54,016 bases of DNA from Bacteroidales bacterium (lineage in GTDB: Bacteria; Bacteroidota; Bacteroidia; Bacteroidales; UBA932), in NCBI GenBank assembly GCA_017399865.1, contig JAFQAT010000055.1, positions 1 through 54,016 on the forward strand. Reading direction: 5' to 3'. The position numbers and the translations under genes are program-made. The notes beneath the pieces are model-generated. The model searched no databases. It was not told where the DNA came from and saw only the letters and a program-made list of their open reading frames with translations. Within the stretch, counting starts at the first letter, position 1; the number at the start of each line of letters is the position of its first letter. This document shows positions 7,513 to 24,156 of this stretch, piece by piece.

Positions 7513-7666
7513 ATCATTTTTTCAATATGGTGCATTTTTATGCAATTCATTCATCCGATGCCCCATTTTTCCGAGCGGTTCAGGCTGTTTTTTTCAACAT
7601 TGTGACATGGAAAATTTTGAGGAGTCAAAAAAATCATTTAATTTAGTAATCCAAATATTTCGTGTC

Positions 7667-9862
7667 ATGACAATAGACTCCGCTCTGCTTCACGGCAAGT
7701 TGAAGGAATTCTTTGGATTTGACTCCTTCAAAGCTGATCAGGAAAAGATCATCACACATCTTGCCAACGGTAACAACGCCTTTGTCCTCATGCCTACAGG
7801 TGGAGGAAAGTCCCTCTGTTATCAGCTGCCGGCCCTCGTGATGGAGGGAACTGCGATTGTCATATCTCCTCTCATCGCCCTGATGAAGAACCAGGTCGAT
7901 GCCATCAGAGGCTTCGTTTCCGGAAACGACGGCATCGCCCACTTCCTGAACTCTTCCCTGAGCAAGGCGCAGATAGCGGACGTCAGGAACGACCTCATGT
8001 CCGGAGCGACAAAGCTACTGTATGTGGCTCCGGAATCCCTGACGAAGGCAGAGAATGTAGCGATGCTGAAGGAGATAAAGATCTCGTTCTACGCCGTAGA
8101 CGAGGCCCACTGCATATCCGAATGGGGCCATGACTTCAGACCGGAATACAGACGCATACGAAATATAATCGAGGAGATCGGAGTCTCCCCTATCATAGCC
8201 CTGACAGCGACTGCGACCCCGAAGGTCCAGAGCGACATAATCAAGAACCTCGGCATGACCGACGCCACCGTCTTCAAGTCGTCGTTCAACCGTCCTAACC
8301 TGTATTATGAAATAAGGGACAAGTCCGACCCGAAGAGAGACATAATCAAGTTCATCCGTCAGAACCCGGGCAAATCCGGAATCATCTACTGTCTGAGCAG
8401 GAAGAAGGTGGAGGAGCTTGCCGAGCTTCTGAACATAAACGGTATCAAGGCGGCGCCATACCACGCAGGACTGGACGCAAAGACCAGAGCCGACAACCAG
8501 GACAGATTCCTGATGGAAGACATTGACGTCATCGTAGCCACCATTGCCTTCGGAATGGGAATCGACAAGCCTGATGTAAGGTTCGTCATCCATTACGACA
8601 TACCTAAGAGCATCGAAGGCTACTATCAGGAGACCGGCCGCGCCGGCAGAGACGGTCAGGAAGGCAAGTGCATCACGTTCTACAGTTACAAGGACATCCA
8701 GAAGCTGGAGAAGTTCATGCAGGGAAAACCTATCGCCGAGCAGGAGATCGGAAAGCAGCTCCTGATGGAGACCGTGGCATATGCGGAATCCAACTCATGC
8801 CGCAGGAAACTCCTTCTGAACTACTTTGGAGAAACATACGGCGTAGAGAACTGCGGGGCATGTGACAACTGTCTCCATCCGAAGAGACAGTTCGACGGAA
8901 GGGAAGAGATGGCGATGGTCATCGAACTCATCCAGACCCTCCCTGAAAGATTCAAGCTGGAACATCTGTCCAACATACTTGCCGGAGAGATGAACTCCAT
9001 CATTAAGTCATACAGACACGACAAGCTCGAGCTTTACGGCGCAGGAAAGGACCACTCGGTGAAGTTCTGGTGCGCAGTGATCCACCAGGGCCTTGTCCGG
9101 CACCTGCTCCATAAGGACATCGAATCATACGGGCTGATCTCCGTAACCCCTGAAGGTCAGGCATTCTATGAAAAGCCTTATGAGCTGATGCTTACGGAAG
9201 AAAGGGAATTCGCGGAAGGAGAAGACGATGATGAAGATACGGCTGCAGCCGCAAGAGGAGGCGGAGGAGGAGACCCTCAGCTTCTCGCGATGCTGAAGGA
9301 CTTAAGAAAAGACGTGGCCAAGAGGCTAAGGCTCCAGCCTTGGGTGATATTCGGAGACCCTTCTCTGGAAGACATGTCCATCATGTACCCTATAACCATC
9401 GACGAACTGAAGAACTGTCAGGGCGTAGGAGAAGGAAAGGCCCGCAAGTTCGGAAAGGAATTCCTGGAGCTCATAGCAAAGTATGTCGAGGAAAACGAGA
9501 TTGAAAGGCCTGACGACTTCGTGATGAAGTCAATGGTCAACAAATCCGTAAACAAGGTATACATAATCCAGAACATAGACCGCAAGATACCTCTGGAAGA
9601 CATCGCAGACTCCAAGGGAATGGACATGGAAGAGCTTCTGGACGAAATAGAGGCAATAGTTGCATCCGGAACCCGTCTGAATCTGGACTATTACATAGAG
9701 CAGACCCTTGACGAGGATATCGTAGACGAGATATTCGAATACTTCCGCGACGAAGCCGAATCAGATTCCCTCGAAGCAGCCATGGAAGATCTCCGTGACG
9801 ACTACGACGAGCCGGAAGTCCGCCTCGTCCGTCTCAAATTCCTCTGCGAAGTCGCCAACTGA
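7667..9862 (+). CDS. recQ: ATP-dependent DNA helicase RecQ
   Basis: A 3'-5' DNA helicase of recombination and repair. Visible parts in order are Walker A (PTGGGKS, about 43-49), the DEAH box (about 144-147), helicase motif VI (QETGRAGRDG, about 326-335), the RecQ zinc site (one Cys near 378 plus CGACDNC near 396-402), a winged-helix region, a Gly-rich linker (RGGGGG) and an HRDC domain (about 545-608). An acidic extension of about 120 residues follows. An in-frame ATG at 7607 exists, but MTIDSALLHGKL at 7667 fits the family N-terminus better. A hairpin of the downstream repeat array begins 17 nt after the stop and may end the transcript. Confidence 0.95.
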   Translation: MTIDSALLHGKLKEFFGFDSFKADQEKIITHLANGNNAFVLMPTGGGKSLCYQLPALVMEGTAIVISPLIALMKNQVDAIRGFVSGNDGIAHFLNSSLSKAQIADVRNDLMSGATKLLYVAPESLTKAENVAMLKEIKISFYAVDEAHCISEWGHDFRPEYRRIRNIIEEIGVSPIIALTATATPKVQSDIIKNLGMTDATVFKSSFNRPNLYYEIRDKSDPKRDIIKFIRQNPGKSGIIYCLSRKKVEELAELLNINGIKAAPYHAGLDAKTRADNQDRFLMEDIDVIVATIAFGMGIDKPDVRFVIHYDIPKSIEGYYQETGRAGRDGQEGKCITFYSYKDIQKLEKFMQGKPIAEQEIGKQLLMETVAYAESNSCRRKLLLNYFGETYGVENCGACDNCLHPKRQFDGREEMAMVIELIQTLPERFKLEHLSNILAGEMNSIIKSYRHDKLELYGAGKDHSVKFWCAVIHQGLVRHLLHKDIESYGLISVTPEGQAFYEKPYELMLTEEREFAEGEDDDEDTAAAARGGGGGDPQLLAMLKDLRKDVAKRLRLQPWVIFGDPSLEDMSIMYPITIDELKNCQGVGEGKARKFGKEFLELIAKYVEENEIERPDDFVMKSMVNKSVNKVYIIQNIDRKIPLEDIADSKGMDMEELLDEIEAIVASGTRLNLDYYIEQTLDEDIVDEIFEYFRDEAESDSLEAAMEDLRDDYDEPEVRLVRLKFLCEVAN

Positions 9863-9878
9863 CATATACATTATCAGT

Positions 9879-10015
9879 CAAAAGCACAAAAACGGACGTT
9901 TTTGTGCTTTTGAACCGTTTTTTCACCTCCTAAAGAACAAATCCGGCTTGTTTTGTTCTTTAGAATTGTCAAACCACTTCAGCCAAGACAGCTATCCATT
10001 TGGCACTTTGCAGAA
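9879..10015. repeat. Upstream 51-bp-period hairpin array
   Basis: Unit 1 (from 9879) is a near-perfect palindrome: CAAAAGCACAAAAACG at 9879-9894 pairs with 9897-9912. Unit 2 (from 9930) has CTAAAGAACAAA pairing with 9952-9963. A degenerate third unit follows from about 9981. The starts are 51 bp apart, the same period and core as in the array at 11100-11330. The first hairpin is followed by a T run and may serve as the recQ terminator. The remaining DNA up to 10146 shows nothing else I can name. Confidence 0.8.
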
Positions 10016-10146
10016 TAATGCATAGATTTGTCCCTGATATTGCGTGGGCATTGTTATGTATCGTGCTCTGCAGGCTGTTCTGGCCGGGGTATCTGAAGCC
10101 CCTTACAAGACGCGCATTCCTTAATTTTTATAAATGAAATTGCATT

Positions 10147-11094
10147 ATGATGAAGAATGACTCTACTGCAGTTTCGTTTCGAGATCTGGAATGGAACTGC
10201 GAACTACAATTCAAAAAGCACAAGCACTATTGGCATCTGTACACCAACGGGAAGGATGTAGATGTCATTTTCAGCAATCGTGAGGAAATGACAGCGGGCA
10301 TGAACATTATGGGCATATGCTGCTTGAACATTCCCGAGGTGAAAGCGTTTACGTTCGAACTGATGAACAATCACCTCCACATTATTCTAGCCGGAGAGCG
10401 TGCTCGCTGCGAAGATCTGTTCTGCATGTTCAAGAAAAAGATTTGGAAGTATTTCTCCAGAAATTCACGAATAGTGGATCTGCGAAAGTTTGAATGCGAA
10501 CTTTTAGAGATAACCTCGCTGCAAAGCCTACGTAATGAAATCATATACGCAAACAGGAACGGATACGTCGCAAGACCGGACTGCACACCTTTCTCATATC
10601 CATGGGGAGCGGGGGCATGGTTCTTCAATCCTCTTATGGCAGAACTGTCTAGCGTCTCGTTCAAAGACCTGACAATCAGAGAGAAAAGACAGATCTGTAG
10701 AAGCAACGACGTCGATCTTCCGGCAGATGATATACGAATATTCAACGGAATGATTCTCCCGTCATGCTTCTGCGACATAAAGACAGCGGAGTCATTCTTC
10801 CGGAGCGCGCATCACTATTTCCAGCAGCTGTCCAGGAAATTCGAAGCATATGGTGAAATAGCTGCCCGTCTGCATGAAAGCGTATTCATTGCAGACGAAG
10901 AAATGTACGCTGCAGTATGTATGCTGTGCATGAAGCTTTTCGACGTCAAGCATCCGGGACTTCTTGCAGCCAATGACAGGATCGAGATGGCAAGGAAGAT
11001 GAAGCAGGAGTACAACGCTTCAAACCGGCAGATAAGAAGTATACTCAAACTGGACAAAGATCTGGTAGACCAACTGTTTCCACCAGCCGTCTGA
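10147..11094 (+). CDS. REP-associated (RAYT-like) Y1/HUH transposase
   Basis: A 315-residue protein with hallmarks of Y1 HUH single-strand transposases of the IS200/TnpA-REP class. The HUH motif lies in NNHLHIIL (H76, H78). The candidate catalytic tyrosine is Y134 in EIIYANRNGYV, followed by a YPW motif (about 151-153) as in RAYT proteins. The C-terminus (about 285-310, NRQIRSILKL) looks like a small helix-turn-helix. Palindromic arrays on both sides fit the REP/RAYT arrangement. The family calls come from motifs read by eye; overall similarity to characterised RAYTs looks low. The start is the first of two tandem ATGs. It appears intact. Confidence 0.78.
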   Translation: MMKNDSTAVSFRDLEWNCELQFKKHKHYWHLYTNGKDVDVIFSNREEMTAGMNIMGICCLNIPEVKAFTFELMNNHLHIILAGERARCEDLFCMFKKKIWKYFSRNSRIVDLRKFECELLEITSLQSLRNEIIYANRNGYVARPDCTPFSYPWGAGAWFFNPLMAELSSVSFKDLTIREKRQICRSNDVDLPADDIRIFNGMILPSCFCDIKTAESFFRSAHHYFQQLSRKFEAYGEIAARLHESVFIADEEMYAAVCMLCMKLFDVKHPGLLAANDRIEMARKMKQEYNASNRQIRSILKLDKDLVDQLFPPAV

Positions 11095-11099
11095 ACAGT

Positions 11100-11330
11100 C
11101 CGAAGAACAAAACTAAGCGGTCCCGTACCTTAGGCGTCTGGAACTCCGGTCTAAAGCACAAAAGTGGGCGGTTTTGTGCTTTAGAAGGTTGCAAACTATG
11201 TCTAAAGAACAAAAATGAGGCGTTTTGTGCTTTAGAAGGTTAGAAACTAGGTCTAAAGAACAAAAGTGGGCGGTTTTGTGCTTTGCAGAGCTGGAAATGC
11301 AGTCCAAAGAGCGAGATAAGGGTTGAAGAA
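11100..11330. repeat. Downstream 51-bp tandem hairpin array
   Basis: Units start at 11100 (degenerate), 11151, 11202, 11253 and 11304 (partial), with a period of exactly 51 bp. In units 2-4 a 34-nt hairpin (arm CTAAAGCACAAAA or CTAAAGAACAAAA, loop near GTGGGCGG, arm TTTTGTGCTTTAG) is followed by a 17-nt spacer. The array begins 5 nt after the transposase stop codon. A minus-strand open frame over it is only the repeat translated as 17-residue units and is not called as a gene. Confidence 0.9.
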
Positions 11331-11348
11331 ACACATGGAGAGCATTAA

Positions 11349-12281
11349 CTAAAGCTCCAGCCAGCGGATGTCCTTGTCGCGGCCCCAGTAGGAGAGCTGG
11401 CGCTTGGCGTAGCGGCGGGTGTTGCGCTGGATCAGCTCTATAGCGCGGTCCAGCGACGTTACCGGGCCGTCGCCGGGAGACCCACCCCGGCGACCAGCAG
11501 CAAAACCAGCAACAGGACCGGAAGTCAGGCCGTCCTGCCAGTCGAACCAGTCGAAGATCTCCTTATAACCTACGGTCTGAAGCGCAGCAAGGTCGCGGTA
11601 GGCAGTCAATGAGCGCACCTCATCTACAAGCCCATCGTCTATCATCTGAATGACACGTCTGTTGATGCGGTCATAAAGGACTTCGCGCGGACGCGTAAGC
11701 CCGATCTTCTCAATCTCAAAATCGCGAGCCTTGCGTGGCGAAGTCTTGAACGAAGAAAACGGTTTTCCTGTCATCAGGCACACCTCAAGAGCACGTACGA
11801 CCCTTTGTCCGTTGGCGATGTCGATCGTTGCATAGCTTTCCGGATCCAGAGCCTTGAGCTCCAGACGCAGAGACTCGACCCCTTCTTCACGCAGACGCCT
11901 CATAAGCTCCTCACGCAGAGGCAGATCTGCCGACGGAAAGTCGTCAAGTCCGTTAACCAAGGCATCGATATAGAAACCTGAGCCTCCTGCCATCACAAGA
12001 GTCTCATGCCCCTCGGAGAAAAGACGGTTTATCAGCTCCAGCGCCTCCAGCTCATACTTTCCTGCAGTATAAAGCTCGGTAACCGTATGGGAATGGATAA
12101 AATAATGCTGAACAGAGTCAAGCTGCTCAGCAGAAGGCACTGCCGTGCCGATGGTCATTTCCTTATATATCTGACGCGAGTCGCAGGATATTATCGGAGA
12201 ATCATATTTGAGCGCAGTCTCGATGCTGTAGTCAGTCTTGCCTACAGCAGTGGGACCGAGAATGATGACAAGCTTATTCAT
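11349..12281 (-). CDS. miaA: tRNA dimethylallyltransferase, paralogue 1
   Basis: Adds a dimethylallyl group to A37 of tRNAs that read UNN codons. The P-loop GPTAVGKT is at residues 9-16, the DSRQIY motif follows near 34-39, GGSGFY is near 98-103, and the C-terminal motif NTRRYAKRQLSYW is intact. The start at 12281 is set by MNKLVIILGPTA; its ATG overlaps the stop of the upstream gene (ATGAATAA). About 25 Gly/Ala-rich residues before the final helix (GFAAGRRGGSPGDG) are absent from typical MiaA and are encoded by a palindrome at 11469-11494, so an in-frame insertion is likely. A second miaA lies at 32107-33189. Confidence 0.93.
   Translation of the reverse strand: MNKLVIILGPTAVGKTDYSIETALKYDSPIISCDSRQIYKEMTIGTAVPSAEQLDSVQHYFIHSHTVTELYTAGKYELEALELINRLFSEGHETLVMAGGSGFYIDALVNGLDDFPSADLPLREELMRRLREEGVESLRLELKALDPESYATIDIANGQRVVRALEVCLMTGKPFSSFKTSPRKARDFEIEKIGLTRPREVLYDRINRRVIQMIDDGLVDEVRSLTAYRDLAALQTVGYKEIFDWFDWQDGLTSGPVAGFAAGRRGGSPGDGPVTSLDRAIELIQRNTRRYAKRQLSYWGRDKDIRWLEL
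11469..11494. repeat. Palindrome inside miaA paralogue 1
   Basis: GTCGCCGGG (11469-11477) and CCCGGCGAC (11486-11494) form a perfect 9-bp inverted repeat around an 8-nt loop. It encodes the extra Gly-rich stretch of MiaA. The CCGGCGACC edge also occurs at the family B element at 18313, but whether they are related is uncertain. Confidence 0.6.
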
Positions 12282-12810
12282 CGTCATCCTCGCCGAAGAT
12301 CTCTTCGGTCTCATCGTCTTCCGGCTCTTCGTCGTCTTCGTCGAAGTCGTCGAAATCATCGTCATCCGGGTCCTTCTTCTTGTCGTCAGGAAGGTCCTCG
12401 AACGCCACATAGCCGTTCTCGAACTCTATAGGATTAGGGCCCTTGGTCTCGACGAGAAGCGGATAGATCACGTTCCTGCGTTCCTGACTTTCGCCATCGA
12501 AAGTCACGATCACGCTCTTCACATTCGTCGTGTCATAGAAATAGATGAACCTGTCCTCCCCCCTCTTGTGGCACTCGCCGAACGTTACATTGTCGATTGT
12601 ACCGAAACCGAAATCCGTGAATACGCTGTATCTGGCAGCAACATCGCCGTCAAGACCGAAAGCCTTGAAGAGCACTACCTGGTCCTGTGGAAAATCCATA
12701 TCTGCCCTCATCTGTTTGTGAAGGCTATATAGAGAGGCGGTTGACTTCACCTCGTATACTCGTGCAAATCCCTTGATTCCGGGAAGAGAAACCCTATATT
12801 TCAGTATCAT
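12274..12810 (-). CDS. pRiA4b ORF-3-like domain protein with acidic tail
   Basis: The first 125 residues (MILKYRVSLPGIKGFARVYEV, then FGLDGDVAARYSVFTDFGFG) resemble the plasmid pRiA4b ORF-3-like domain, whose function is unknown. The last 45 residues are almost entirely Asp/Glu (DDDDFDDFDEDDEEPEDDE), giving a strongly acidic disordered tail. Its stop overlaps the start of miaA, so the two are translationally coupled. A -7 box lies at 12868-12875. Confidence 0.7.
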   Translation of the reverse strand: MILKYRVSLPGIKGFARVYEVKSTASLYSLHKQMRADMDFPQDQVVLFKAFGLDGDVAARYSVFTDFGFGTIDNVTFGECHKRGEDRFIYFYDTTNVKSVIVTFDGESQERRNVIYPLLVETKGPNPIEFENGYVAFEDLPDDKKKDPDDDDFDDFDEDDEEPEDDETEEIFGEDDDE

Positions 12811-15056: not shown

Positions 15057-16130
15057 ATGAAAAAGGTTCATAATTTTACAGCAGGACCATGCGTCCTGCC
15101 ACAGCAGGCGATTGACAACGCAATCGAAGCTTTGAAGGACTTCAAGGGAACAGGCATTCCCGTAATCTCGATCTCACACAGAACAAAGGAATGGGAGGCA
15201 GTCATGGACGAGTGCCGCGCACTCTGGAGAGAGCTTCTCAACATCCCTGAAGATTATGAAATCCTTTTCCTCGGAGGTGGAGCAAGCATGGGCTTCCTCT
15301 ACGTTGCAATGAACTTCCTTGAGAACAAGGCAGGATACCTGGAGACAGGCGTATGGGCAAAGAAGGCGCTCAAAGAGGCAAAGGGACTCGGAAACGCATA
15401 CGCTGTCGCTTCTTCAGCAGAAACTGTATTCAATTATATTCCTAAGGGATATGAGATCCCAAGCGACCTGGATTACTTCCACATCACATCAAACAACACA
15501 ATCTACGGAACCGAGATCCTCGAAGACCTCGACTGCCCTGTTCCGCTTATCGCCGACATGTCTTCAGACATCATGAGCCGTCCTGTGGACGTGAGCAAGT
15601 ATGCGATGATCTACGGCGGTGCACAGAAGAACGTGGGCCCTGCAGGCGTTGCATTCTTCATCGTGAAGAAGGACCTCCTCGGAAAGGTAAGCCGCTATAT
15701 CCCTACAATGCTTGACCTCCGCACCCATATCGACGGCAAGTCAATGTTCAACACCCCTCCTGTATTCTCGATCTACGTGATGAACGAGACACTCAAGTGG
15801 CTCAAGGGAATCGGCGGAGTGGAGGCGATCCAGAAGATCAACCAGGAGAAAGCTGCCCTTCTTTACGCAGAAATCGACCGCAACCCTCTCTTCAAGGGCA
15901 CTGCAGCTGTCGAAGACCGTTCGCTCATGAACGTATGCTTCGTGATGGCAGACGGATACGAGCATCTCCAGGACGAGTTCATGGCATTCGCAAAGGAGAA
16001 GGGAATGACCGGAATCAAGGGCCACAGGTCTGTAGGAGGTTTCCGCGCATCCATCTACAACGCATGCCCTGTTGAAAGCGTACAGGCGCTCGTAGACTGC
16101 ATGAAGGAGTTTGAACAGCTTAAGAAATAG
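15057..16130 (+). CDS. serC: Phosphoserine aminotransferase
   Basis: PLP enzyme converting 3-phosphohydroxypyruvate to phosphoserine. The PLP lysine is K191 in [12 protein letters not shown]. The N-terminus [11 protein letters not shown] and the C-terminal [15 protein letters not shown] are family signatures, and the length of 357 residues is usual. It forms a tight cluster with serA (2 nt gap) and a DUF1015 gene. Confidence 0.97.
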
Positions 16131-23223: not shown

Positions 23224-24156
23224 CTATAGAGCCTCAACCTCATCTGCATTCAGCCCCACAATTTCAGCTATATCCTCTACGGACATTCCCATATCCTTAA
23301 GGTTCCTCGCGATTTCCCTTGCCTTTTCCAGACTCCCTTCTGCTCTTCCTTCTGCTCTTCCTTCTGCGAGTCCTCTTTCACGTCCCTCTGCGAGACCTCT
23401 TTCACGTCCCTCTGCGAGACCTTCTTCGATAGCCTCTTTCCTTGCATAGGCCATCTGATTTCTTAAATCTCTTTCTGTTGTCATCTTTTCTATAACTTTA
23501 GAACGCGTTTCTTCATCCATATTCAAGAGTTCAGACGCCTGGAACATCTTCTTGAAAACATCGTGTCCAAGCGCTTCCGGACGGTCTTGGAGGCTTGACA
23601 TATTCTTGAAGCAGAAGTACATTCCTTCAAGGATATCACCGTCAAGATCTTCTTCTCTTTTCTTGAACTTGGATAGTTCAAGAAAGATGAAAGTCAACCT
23701 GTCAGTCAGAAGAGCACCTGTTTCATCCTCATGCAATCTGTATACCGTCCGGACATTTTGGTTGCCTCTGTTCTGGTCCATATCAAAGTCAAGAATACTT
23801 ATGACATAAACCGGACAGAAATCGTAATCACCGGAACCGGCTTCTATCTGCCTGCTCACCTGAAAGGTCGAATAATAAATAGCCCTTTCAGCATAGGTGG
23901 ACTGCTTGCGCCGCTGTACTTCCACTACTATTCTTGACCCATCATCCGTATGACAAAACATGTCGTACACAGAACTCTTGCGATTTCTGTCCATAGGATG
24001 CATTTCCTTGTCCATGAAATCCAGATCTACAATATTCCTGTCGGTAATCACACGATTAAGGAATTCGATCATTACATCCTTGCTGGACTCCTGTCCAAAT
24101 ACCAACTTGAAAACATCATCGTCCAGCAAGTCGGCATACTTGAATTTTCTTGACAT
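23224..24156 (-). CDS. Rpn-family PD-(D/E)XK nuclease / transposase-like protein
   Basis: Belongs to the PD-(D/E)XK family transposase / recombination-promoting nuclease (Rpn) group. Candidate active-site residues are D65 (SSVYDMF) and E79/Q81 (IVVEVQ). Rpn proteins of E. coli promote RecA-independent recombination and some act in phage defence. The C-terminus carries near-perfect repeats of GLAEGRER and AEGRAEG followed by an HTH-like end (MSVEDIAEIVGLNADEV). The repeats are also visible at DNA level (23335-23425), so repeat number may vary. It is flanked by two near-identical terminators. Confidence 0.88.
   Translation of the reverse strand: MSRKFKYADLLDDDVFKLVFGQESSKDVMIEFLNRVITDRNIVDLDFMDKEMHPMDRNRKSSVYDMFCHTDDGSRIVVEVQRRKQSTYAERAIYYSTFQVSRQIEAGSGDYDFCPVYVISILDFDMDQNRGNQNVRTVYRLHEDETGALLTDRLTFIFLELSKFKKREEDLDGDILEGMYFCFKNMSSLQDRPEALGHDVFKKMFQASELLNMDEETRSKVIEKMTTERDLRNQMAYARKEAIEEGLAEGRERGLAEGRERGLAEGRAEGRAEGSLEKAREIARNLKDMGMSVEDIAEIVGLNADEVEAL
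23335..23425. repeat. In-frame tandem repeats in the Rpn gene
   Basis: 12-bp units (CTTCTGCTCTTC) and 24-bp units (CTCTTTCACGTCCCTCTGCGAGAC), read on the plus strand, encode the AEGR/GLAEGRER repeats. Confidence 0.85.

Follow-up and report, generated by a model that had tools for sequence, protein, structure and literature searches.

The question raised by this locus is whether the palindromes on both sides of a RAYT-like transposase gene belong to the enzyme that the gene encodes, as in REP/RAYT pairs, or serve instead as the ends of an insertion sequence, as transcription terminators or as the sites of a regulator. The window analyzed here is the whole of a 54,016-nt contig (JAFQAT010000055.1; C48) of a Bacteroidales genome (G000) of 2.19 Mb in 83 contigs that is 78% complete. 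The locus is, with high probability, a REPtron, that is, a domesticated HUH/Y1 single-stranded DNA (ssDNA) transposase of the RAYT/TnpAREP kind with arrays of its cognate REP-like palindrome on both sides, and the evidence supports assigning it to a new Bacteroidales branch of RAYT/REP (REPIN-like) systems. The features discussed below are collected in the table. Two other repeats were observed elsewhere in the window: a 110-bp unit in two tandem copies that match at 92% (90-312), and 12- and 24-bp tandem repeats (23336-23429) near the 3' end of a minus-strand ORF (23224-24156).

Table. Features of the transposase locus in window coordinates
Feature	Position	Strand	Basis
recQ, left neighbor of the RAYT-like gene	7607..9862	+	domain/family match
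Left array, hairpin 1	9879..9912	.	pattern, period, shuffle test
Left doublet spacer	9913..9929	.	period analysis
Left array, hairpin 2	9930..9963	.	pattern, period, shuffle test
RAYT-like HUH/Y1 transposase ORF, P0001, 315 aa	10147..11094	+	ORF list, homologues, Y1_Tnp via relatives
HUH motif, codons H76-L77-H78	10372..10380	+	H76 and H78 invariant in 81/81 and 24/24
Candidate catalytic Y134	10546..10548	+	invariant in 81/81 and 24/24 aligned sequences
N138	10558-10560	+	weak hhalign register with N119 of E. coli RayT
Half-site (decayed; only the left arm) on the 51-bp register	11100..11111	.	pattern, folding
Right array, hairpin 1	11151..11184	.	pattern, period, shuffle test
Right array, hairpin 2	11202..11235	.	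pattern, period, shuffle test
Right array, hairpin 3, lacking its outermost pairs (11285-11286)	11253..11286	.	pattern, period, shuffle test
Decayed half-site in register with 51-bp period	11304..11313	.	pattern
miaA, right neighbor of the RAYT-like gene	11349..12410	-	domain/family match

Five intact palindromes of the form AAAGMACAAA-N10-TTTGTKCTTT flank the ORF, two on the left (9881-9910 and 9932-9961) and three on the right (11153-11182, 11204-11233, and 11255-11284), with a period of exactly 51 bp inside each array. The first-pass annotation had proposed this spacing and a common palindrome core on both sides of the gene, and both were borne out: the pattern matches five times in the window compared with a mean of 0.00 in 100 dinucleotide shuffles, even at three mismatches. 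All five stretches with intact units that were folded as ssDNA, two from the window and three dispersed, yielded z scores between -5.1 and -7.8. Two additional right-hand units, claimed at 11100 and 11304, proved to be half-sites rather than hairpins, and the segment 11099-11140 folds no better than shuffled sequence (165 of 200 shuffles were at least as good); a "degenerate" third unit on the left (9981) was not recognized. The right array is also traversed by a minus-strand open frame of 73 aa (11113-11334), for which chance had been suggested at the outset. Because this frame has no significant Pfam match (best E value, 0.053) and the orthologous array of a congeneric genome (G021) has a period of 52 bp, it is probably a by-product of 51 being 3 x 17, and the 52-bp period led to the rejection of a coding reading of the array.

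The protein itself has no significant match in Pfam, NCBIfam, or PHROG, and an HMM search against Y1_Tnp, proposed in the first-pass annotation, gave nothing for P0001 but reached some of its relatives: 12 of 24 aligned members, P0001 among the 24, touched PF01797 (Y1_Tnp) at E ≤ 1 (best, 4.3e-5), and a paralogue on contig C17 of the same genome exceeded the cutoff (24.1 bits versus 23). When a profile of the 24 members was compared with the PDB, the best match was 2xm3, a transposase (E = 0.0042), presumably ISDra2 TnpA. The HUH residues H76 and H78 and the candidate tyrosine Y134 are present as originally claimed and are invariant in 81 of 81 sequences and in all 24 of the more diverse members; N138 is present in every one of the 81 sequences and in 90% or more of the 24. 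In an hhalign comparison with E. coli RayT, the 24-member profile placed HUH on HUH and YANRN on YIYIN, weakly (E = 0.055), and the A3 profile fell into a wrong register. Judged by its sequence, P0001 is a remote Y1_Tnp relative, connected to that family through its homologues.

Five further matches to P0001 are found at four loci of its own genome (E values from 1.7e-79 to 1.8e-9), including two neighboring pieces on contig C16 that look like one split gene. A single-sequence search (E ≤ 1e-5) identified homologues in 31 of the 36 other congeneric genomes and in none of 24 genomes from other families of the order, and within the GTDB family a nine-sequence profile (E ≤ 1e-10) matched 60 of 149 genomes, spread over 11 of 25 genera, a distribution that fits the notion of a new Bacteroidales branch. 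Several analyses below use the best 80 of 187 homologue loci from genome contigs, which range from 77 to 36% identity and include the named Candidatus Cryptobacteroides. Plasmid and phage records contained no match at E ≤ 1e-3. One 36% homologue was observed in IMG/VR (IMGVR_UViG_3300020112_002877; L074/L155) on a contig classed as viral, although this contig may be cellular and misassigned.

The hairpin also occurs outside the transposase locus, as a genome-wide search of the kind suggested in the first-pass annotation established: the genome has 14 exact palindromes, of which 5 belong to the arrays beside the gene and 9 are scattered over six other contigs, compared with no copies of a reversed control pattern. 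Copy numbers are low, with 11 to 16 exact copies in G000, G061, G062, and G063, and these are lower bounds because the related genomes are mostly metagenome assembled and many are incomplete. The dispersed copies come in a regular form. All 36 dispersed loci examined in six genomes hold several units, 33 as doublets and 3 as triplets, with no single hairpin; 30 of these loci were reached with a single-palindrome pattern, and the remaining six (L198-L203) were reached with doublet DNA and are hence biased. The 39 spacings at these loci were 51 bp (28 cases), 52 bp (9 cases), or 50 bp (2 cases). A doublet consists of a hairpin, a spacer of ∼20 nt, and a second hairpin, a unit of ∼88 nt with a hairpin at both ends. 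TCA is common at the hairpin foot (T, 86%; C, 72%; A, 73%), and a GTAG/GTGG foot was seen in 2 of 152 feet compared with 6.8 expected. Of the first 11 dispersed loci, 3 (L061, L063, and L064) overlap a predicted ORF, and the other 8 are located in the gaps separating ORFs of 110 aa or more.

The hairpins are near-perfect palindromes, pairing at 611 of 660 stem positions within hairpins and at 604 of 660 across the doublet, and their relative orientation consequently cannot be read from the stems. The loops of 24 adjacent pairs are more alike when read directly than when inverted (mean, 3.0 versus 1.0; permutation values, 0.0105 and 0.98), a likeness that is helped by duplicated units at the gene arrays. 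Kissing loops between the two hairpins of a doublet, sought by eye, were not consistent. Related repeats were also observed beyond these genomes. Three arrays in G081 (L209, L210, and L211) have the same stem, 9-nt loops, a period of 51 to 52 bp, and an A-rich foot; each copy in this genome, for which no close orthologue is known, is accompanied by another unit at a distance of 51 or 52 bp, in some cases one with three mismatches. In another family of the order, G045 (L050) contains one perfect palindrome with the same stem and no partner at 51 bp. Finally, a second dispersed repeat of ∼80 bp, GC-rich and partly palindromic, adjoins a hairpin triplet on contig C76 of G000 (L068, ∼2160-2245); it also occurs at several places in G021, G061, G063, and G074 and is apparently unrelated to the hairpin.

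To what extent gene and palindrome occur together was examined across genomes. Within the genus, the palindrome is present in 1 of the 36 other genomes, namely, G021, which has 16 copies and the 74% orthologue; the REP/RAYT-like architecture initially proposed is supported, with palindromes that are dispersed and, among congeners, found where a close orthologue is found. A wider survey covered 43 genomes reached through 44 of the 80 best loci (G062 being G021 again). The AAAGMAC palindrome occurs in 6 of the 43, and 46 of its 50 copies are in genomes where the cognate gene is present: the genomes with the 77, 74, and 59% orthologues contain 14, 16, and 11 copies, respectively, and another 5 are in that of L088, a locus with the near-identical CGAAAGCAC as its own palindrome. 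Palindromes without a known cognate gene were seen in G045 (one), G064 (one), and G081 (three). All 31 copies of a second palindrome, GTTTGTTCC, lie in exactly the 7 genomes that have it at the gene flanks (the seventh, G079, holds L118), with none in the 36 others; all exact copies are at the gene in G088 and G094, and, as judged from the coordinates, some are elsewhere in the other five genomes. For a third, TCGGCCAC, 14 of 16 copies are in the 4 genomes with that flank and one each in 2 others. Because the patterns were picked from gene flanks, copies at the genes are expected, and what counts as evidence is the presence of copies away from the genes and the lack of any in the remaining genomes.

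Palindromes also accompany three paralogues of the same genome. The C4 paralogue (40% identical) is accompanied on one side by a different palindrome, GCCAGAAAATAGCCCGAATTTCTGGC, like that of L090; this type was not found in L091, L092, or L101. The palindrome of the C17 paralogue has two exact copies in the genome, both near the C17 gene, and is not dispersed. These are identical 33-bp palindromes 2.3 kb apart (C17:13511-13543 and 15813-15845; L005, L205, and L206) that bracket the paralogue. A repeated palindrome, GTGTACA...TGTACAC, was also observed beside the C52 paralogue (L003, 913-948 and 1365-1400).

Palindromes at the gene flanks change with the protein. Flanks were compared at 76 of the 80 loci, 4 being dropped for flanks shorter than 200 bp: hairpin-arm octamers are common to both flanks of the gene at 40 loci, and none are common at 36. 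Control windows at the same loci shared arms in 0 of 180 cases, and as these windows are mostly coding DNA, a control with mismatched flanks was added. Flanks of different genes shared arms in 12 of 4,840 pairs when the proteins were less than 45% identical, in 43 of 728 pairs at 45 to 70%, and in 80 of 132 pairs at 70% or more. In a pairwise comparison of 41 loci (the window and the 40 with shared arms), at least 8 nt of the hairpin are shared by 33 of 34 pairs at protein identities of at least 70%, by 15 of 34 at 55 to 70%, by 10 of 87 at 45 to 55%, and by 44 of 665 below 45%. The Mantel correlation between hairpin and protein over these loci (rho = 0.21) was reached by none of 2,000 permutations. 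Eight palindrome classes were assigned by eye to 28 of the 81 rows of a maximum likelihood protein tree, the 53 classless rows being left out. Together they need 7 changes, which is the minimum and is matched by none of 200 shuffles, in a test that near-copies favor; taken singly, the AAAGMAC and CGGCCAC classes need 2 changes, not 1. The palindrome classes follow the protein tree near the minimum of changes.

The RAYT-like gene adjoins miaA in G021 and at L075 and L077; it also adjoins recQ at L077, as it does in G021 with one extra ORF between. The same gene neighborhood recurs in relatives at 59 to 77% identity, and the gene appears to be vertically inherited. The transposase gene keeps its place but has the opposite orientation to the window in G021, L075, and L077, and the hairpin arrays may have acted as recombination points. 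At L075 (SIG152), the recQ block was observed to be inverted and moved away from the gene, with the breakpoint at a hairpin array. A separate observation concerns contig C9 of G021 (L058:5800-6657), where a 286-aa ORF with RNase_T (7.3e-15) and BRCT (2.2e-9) matches lies between two hairpin doublets by the gene; this ORF is not present at the window locus.

Dispersed units are present at some sites and missing from their counterparts in relatives. A triplet upstream of a conserved gene on contig C76 of G000 is missing from the aligned intergene of G021 and G061, and the longer orthologous intergenes of G063 and G074 contain no unit at up to two mismatches. A triplet of G074 is likewise missing from the short orthologous intergene of G063, which also misses other flanking DNA. 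The comparison of strains for empty sites that the first-pass annotation recommended yielded empty orthologous intergenes in relatives, a contrast that gain and loss would fit alike; the intergenes are too diverged for a base-exact junction. No long target duplication is visible at the compared occupied and empty intergenes. At L066, there was no aligned flank pair, and at a further site the sequences of G000 and G063 have diverged too far for a comparison. Units are shared by two species at three sites (G000/G021 twice and G021/G074 once), with flanks that align at ∼71 to 85%; there, stems are identical at 112 of 120 positions and loops at 35 of 65, a contrast that is suggestive only, as the stems were partly picked by the search pattern.

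Placed among known systems, the locus shares with the RAYT/TnpAREP superfamily the HUH and single-tyrosine residues, the cognate flanking palindromes, and the dispersal of a separate palindrome family for each gene type, with the C17 paralogue, G088, and G094 as exceptions to the last. As in REPINs, the dispersed unit is a doublet of REP-like hairpins, or a triplet, at all 36 loci; the GTAG/GTGG foot of canonical REPs is absent from these hairpins. The E. coli RayT/TnpAREP system with its BIME/REPIN elements (subclass 2.2) is similar in that cognate flanking palindromes are dispersed as multiunit elements and in that the HUH...YxxxN core falls, weakly, in the same register. P0001 continues past the HUH core with a C-terminal half of ∼150 aa, whereas the whole of E. 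coli RayT is 165 aa and only weakly similar. The REPs of E. coli carry the GTAG motif and a bulge (PMC8266576) and can account for as much as 1% of the chromosome (PMC6006769). Group 3 REPtrons of S. maltophilia and Marinomonas are alike in their perfect palindromes and the coevolution of enzyme and REP, whereas GTAG is still present in them and the protein group is different (PMC8266576).

The closest published description is that of subclass 2.6 (RAYT group 5) in PMC6006769: in Bacteroidetes, atypical hairpins without GT[AG]G flank these genes and have copies elsewhere, and class 3 is also listed there without the GTAG foot. The present group resembles subclass 2.6 in its occurrence in Bacteroidetes, atypical flanking hairpins, genomic copies, and an NH[LIV]H-type HUH motif. 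For subclass 2.6, the same source gives a value of 179 (taken as the length in amino acids), YIH[QN]NP and WQ motifs, a 21-aa insertion, and a median HuH-Y distance of 82; in contrast, P0001 has 315 aa, 56 to 58 residues from HUH to Y134, a YANRN motif, no conserved W between HUH and Y, and the long C-terminal half. Because the published size and motif values (length, HuH-Y distance, YIH[QN]NP, and WQ) do not apply to it, P0001 was not filed in subclass 2.6, and its group looks, from the protein sequences, like a further, longer RAYT subclass. Given the description in PMC6006769, RAYTs with flanking hairpins were already known from Bacteroidetes; as far as searched, the novelty consists of the subclass, of dispersal regularly taking the form of a two-hairpin unit, and of hairpins that track the protein over many pairs. 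In a literature search naming Cryptobacteroides, with a coverage that leaves out most subscription journals, none of the papers listed (20 of 23) contains that name.

The palindromes could also be accounted for without a REP/RAYT system. Were the locus a full IS200/IS605-type insertion sequence, the arrays would be its ends and the whole gene would be mobile as one unit. The enzyme superfamily is indeed the same HUH/Y1 superfamily, with IS200/IS605 TnpA (2xm3) as the best PDB profile match, and hairpins stand on both sides of the gene. However, an element of this type moves as a unit in several copies, whereas here the nearest copy of the gene in its own (78% complete) genome is 40% identical, compared with 14 palindromes, and multiple copies of the same subfamily are missing from that genome; the neighborhood is fixed, the gene lying beside miaA in three relatives; the arrays comprise several units rather than one end hairpin; and TnpB is not among the scanned neighbors (recQ, miaA, and a PRiA4_ORF3-like protein). 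This makes an insertion sequence very unlikely. Even less can be said for ordinary bidirectional terminators or mRNA-stabilizing hairpins that lie near the gene by coincidence, an explanation with hardly any credibility left: the intergenic position of 8 of 11 dispersed loci and the strong folding of the intact stretches would agree with it, but the regular doublet unit, the link to genomes with the cognate gene, and the tracking of the protein tree would all go unexplained, and Rfam has no match at E ≤ 1 within 9600-11600. A secondary role as terminators may nevertheless accrue to the palindromes.

A further alternative holds that the palindromes are not ssDNA substrates but duplex sites of a regulator, for instance, with the C-terminal half of P0001 acting as an autorepressor and global regulator. 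Palindromes that are almost perfect, with stems conserved and loops free to vary, would suit a dimeric binder of duplex DNA, and ∼150 aa beyond the HUH core could supply one. Still, a pure binder would have no use for the invariant HUH and tyrosine residues, and the fixed doublet and the empty sites point to mobilization, so this alternative is improbable, if somewhat less so than the two above.

For the favored REPtron, a mechanism can be outlined from the kinship and invariant residues of the protein, the flanking arrays, the doublets and triplets, the matching of gene and palindrome between species, and the occupied and empty sites. The protein would recognize its cognate hairpin as folded ssDNA, probably on the lagging-strand template, and would read the outer half of the stem, which varies between subfamilies. 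Y134 would cut near the foot of the hairpin, with H76 and H78 holding the metal, and the two-hairpin unit of ∼88 nt would be excised and rejoined. The doublet would thereby be a dispersed nonautonomous element whose spread the enzyme causes, while the gene itself would stay beside miaA and recQ.

A broader proposal, for and against which the balance is even, is that the proteins form an unclassified, Bacteroidales-specific RAYT-like subclass with a long C-terminal half that has radiated in one GTDB family (including Cryptobacteroides). Each genome would have several of the many resulting paralogous enzyme/hairpin pairs, and each pair would mobilize an obligate element of two hairpins (∼88 nt, no GTAG foot), with specificity residing in the outer stem and switching at ∼55 to 70% protein identity. 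The locus also widens REP/RAYT biology to Bacteroidales of the rumen and hindgut that are uncultured, and P0001 is missed there by the Pfam model. The automatic REP search of the 2018 survey (Quentin et al. 2018; PMC6006769) relied on the GT[AG]G signature, which the hairpins described here lack. What RAYTs offer their hosts and how each recognizes its own REP are open questions. A single family with many divergent enzyme/hairpin pairs, from 77 to 36% identity among the best 80 of 187 loci, and with hairpin switches among them provides material for a recognition code, which, if the proposal is true, would be readable from sequence alone.
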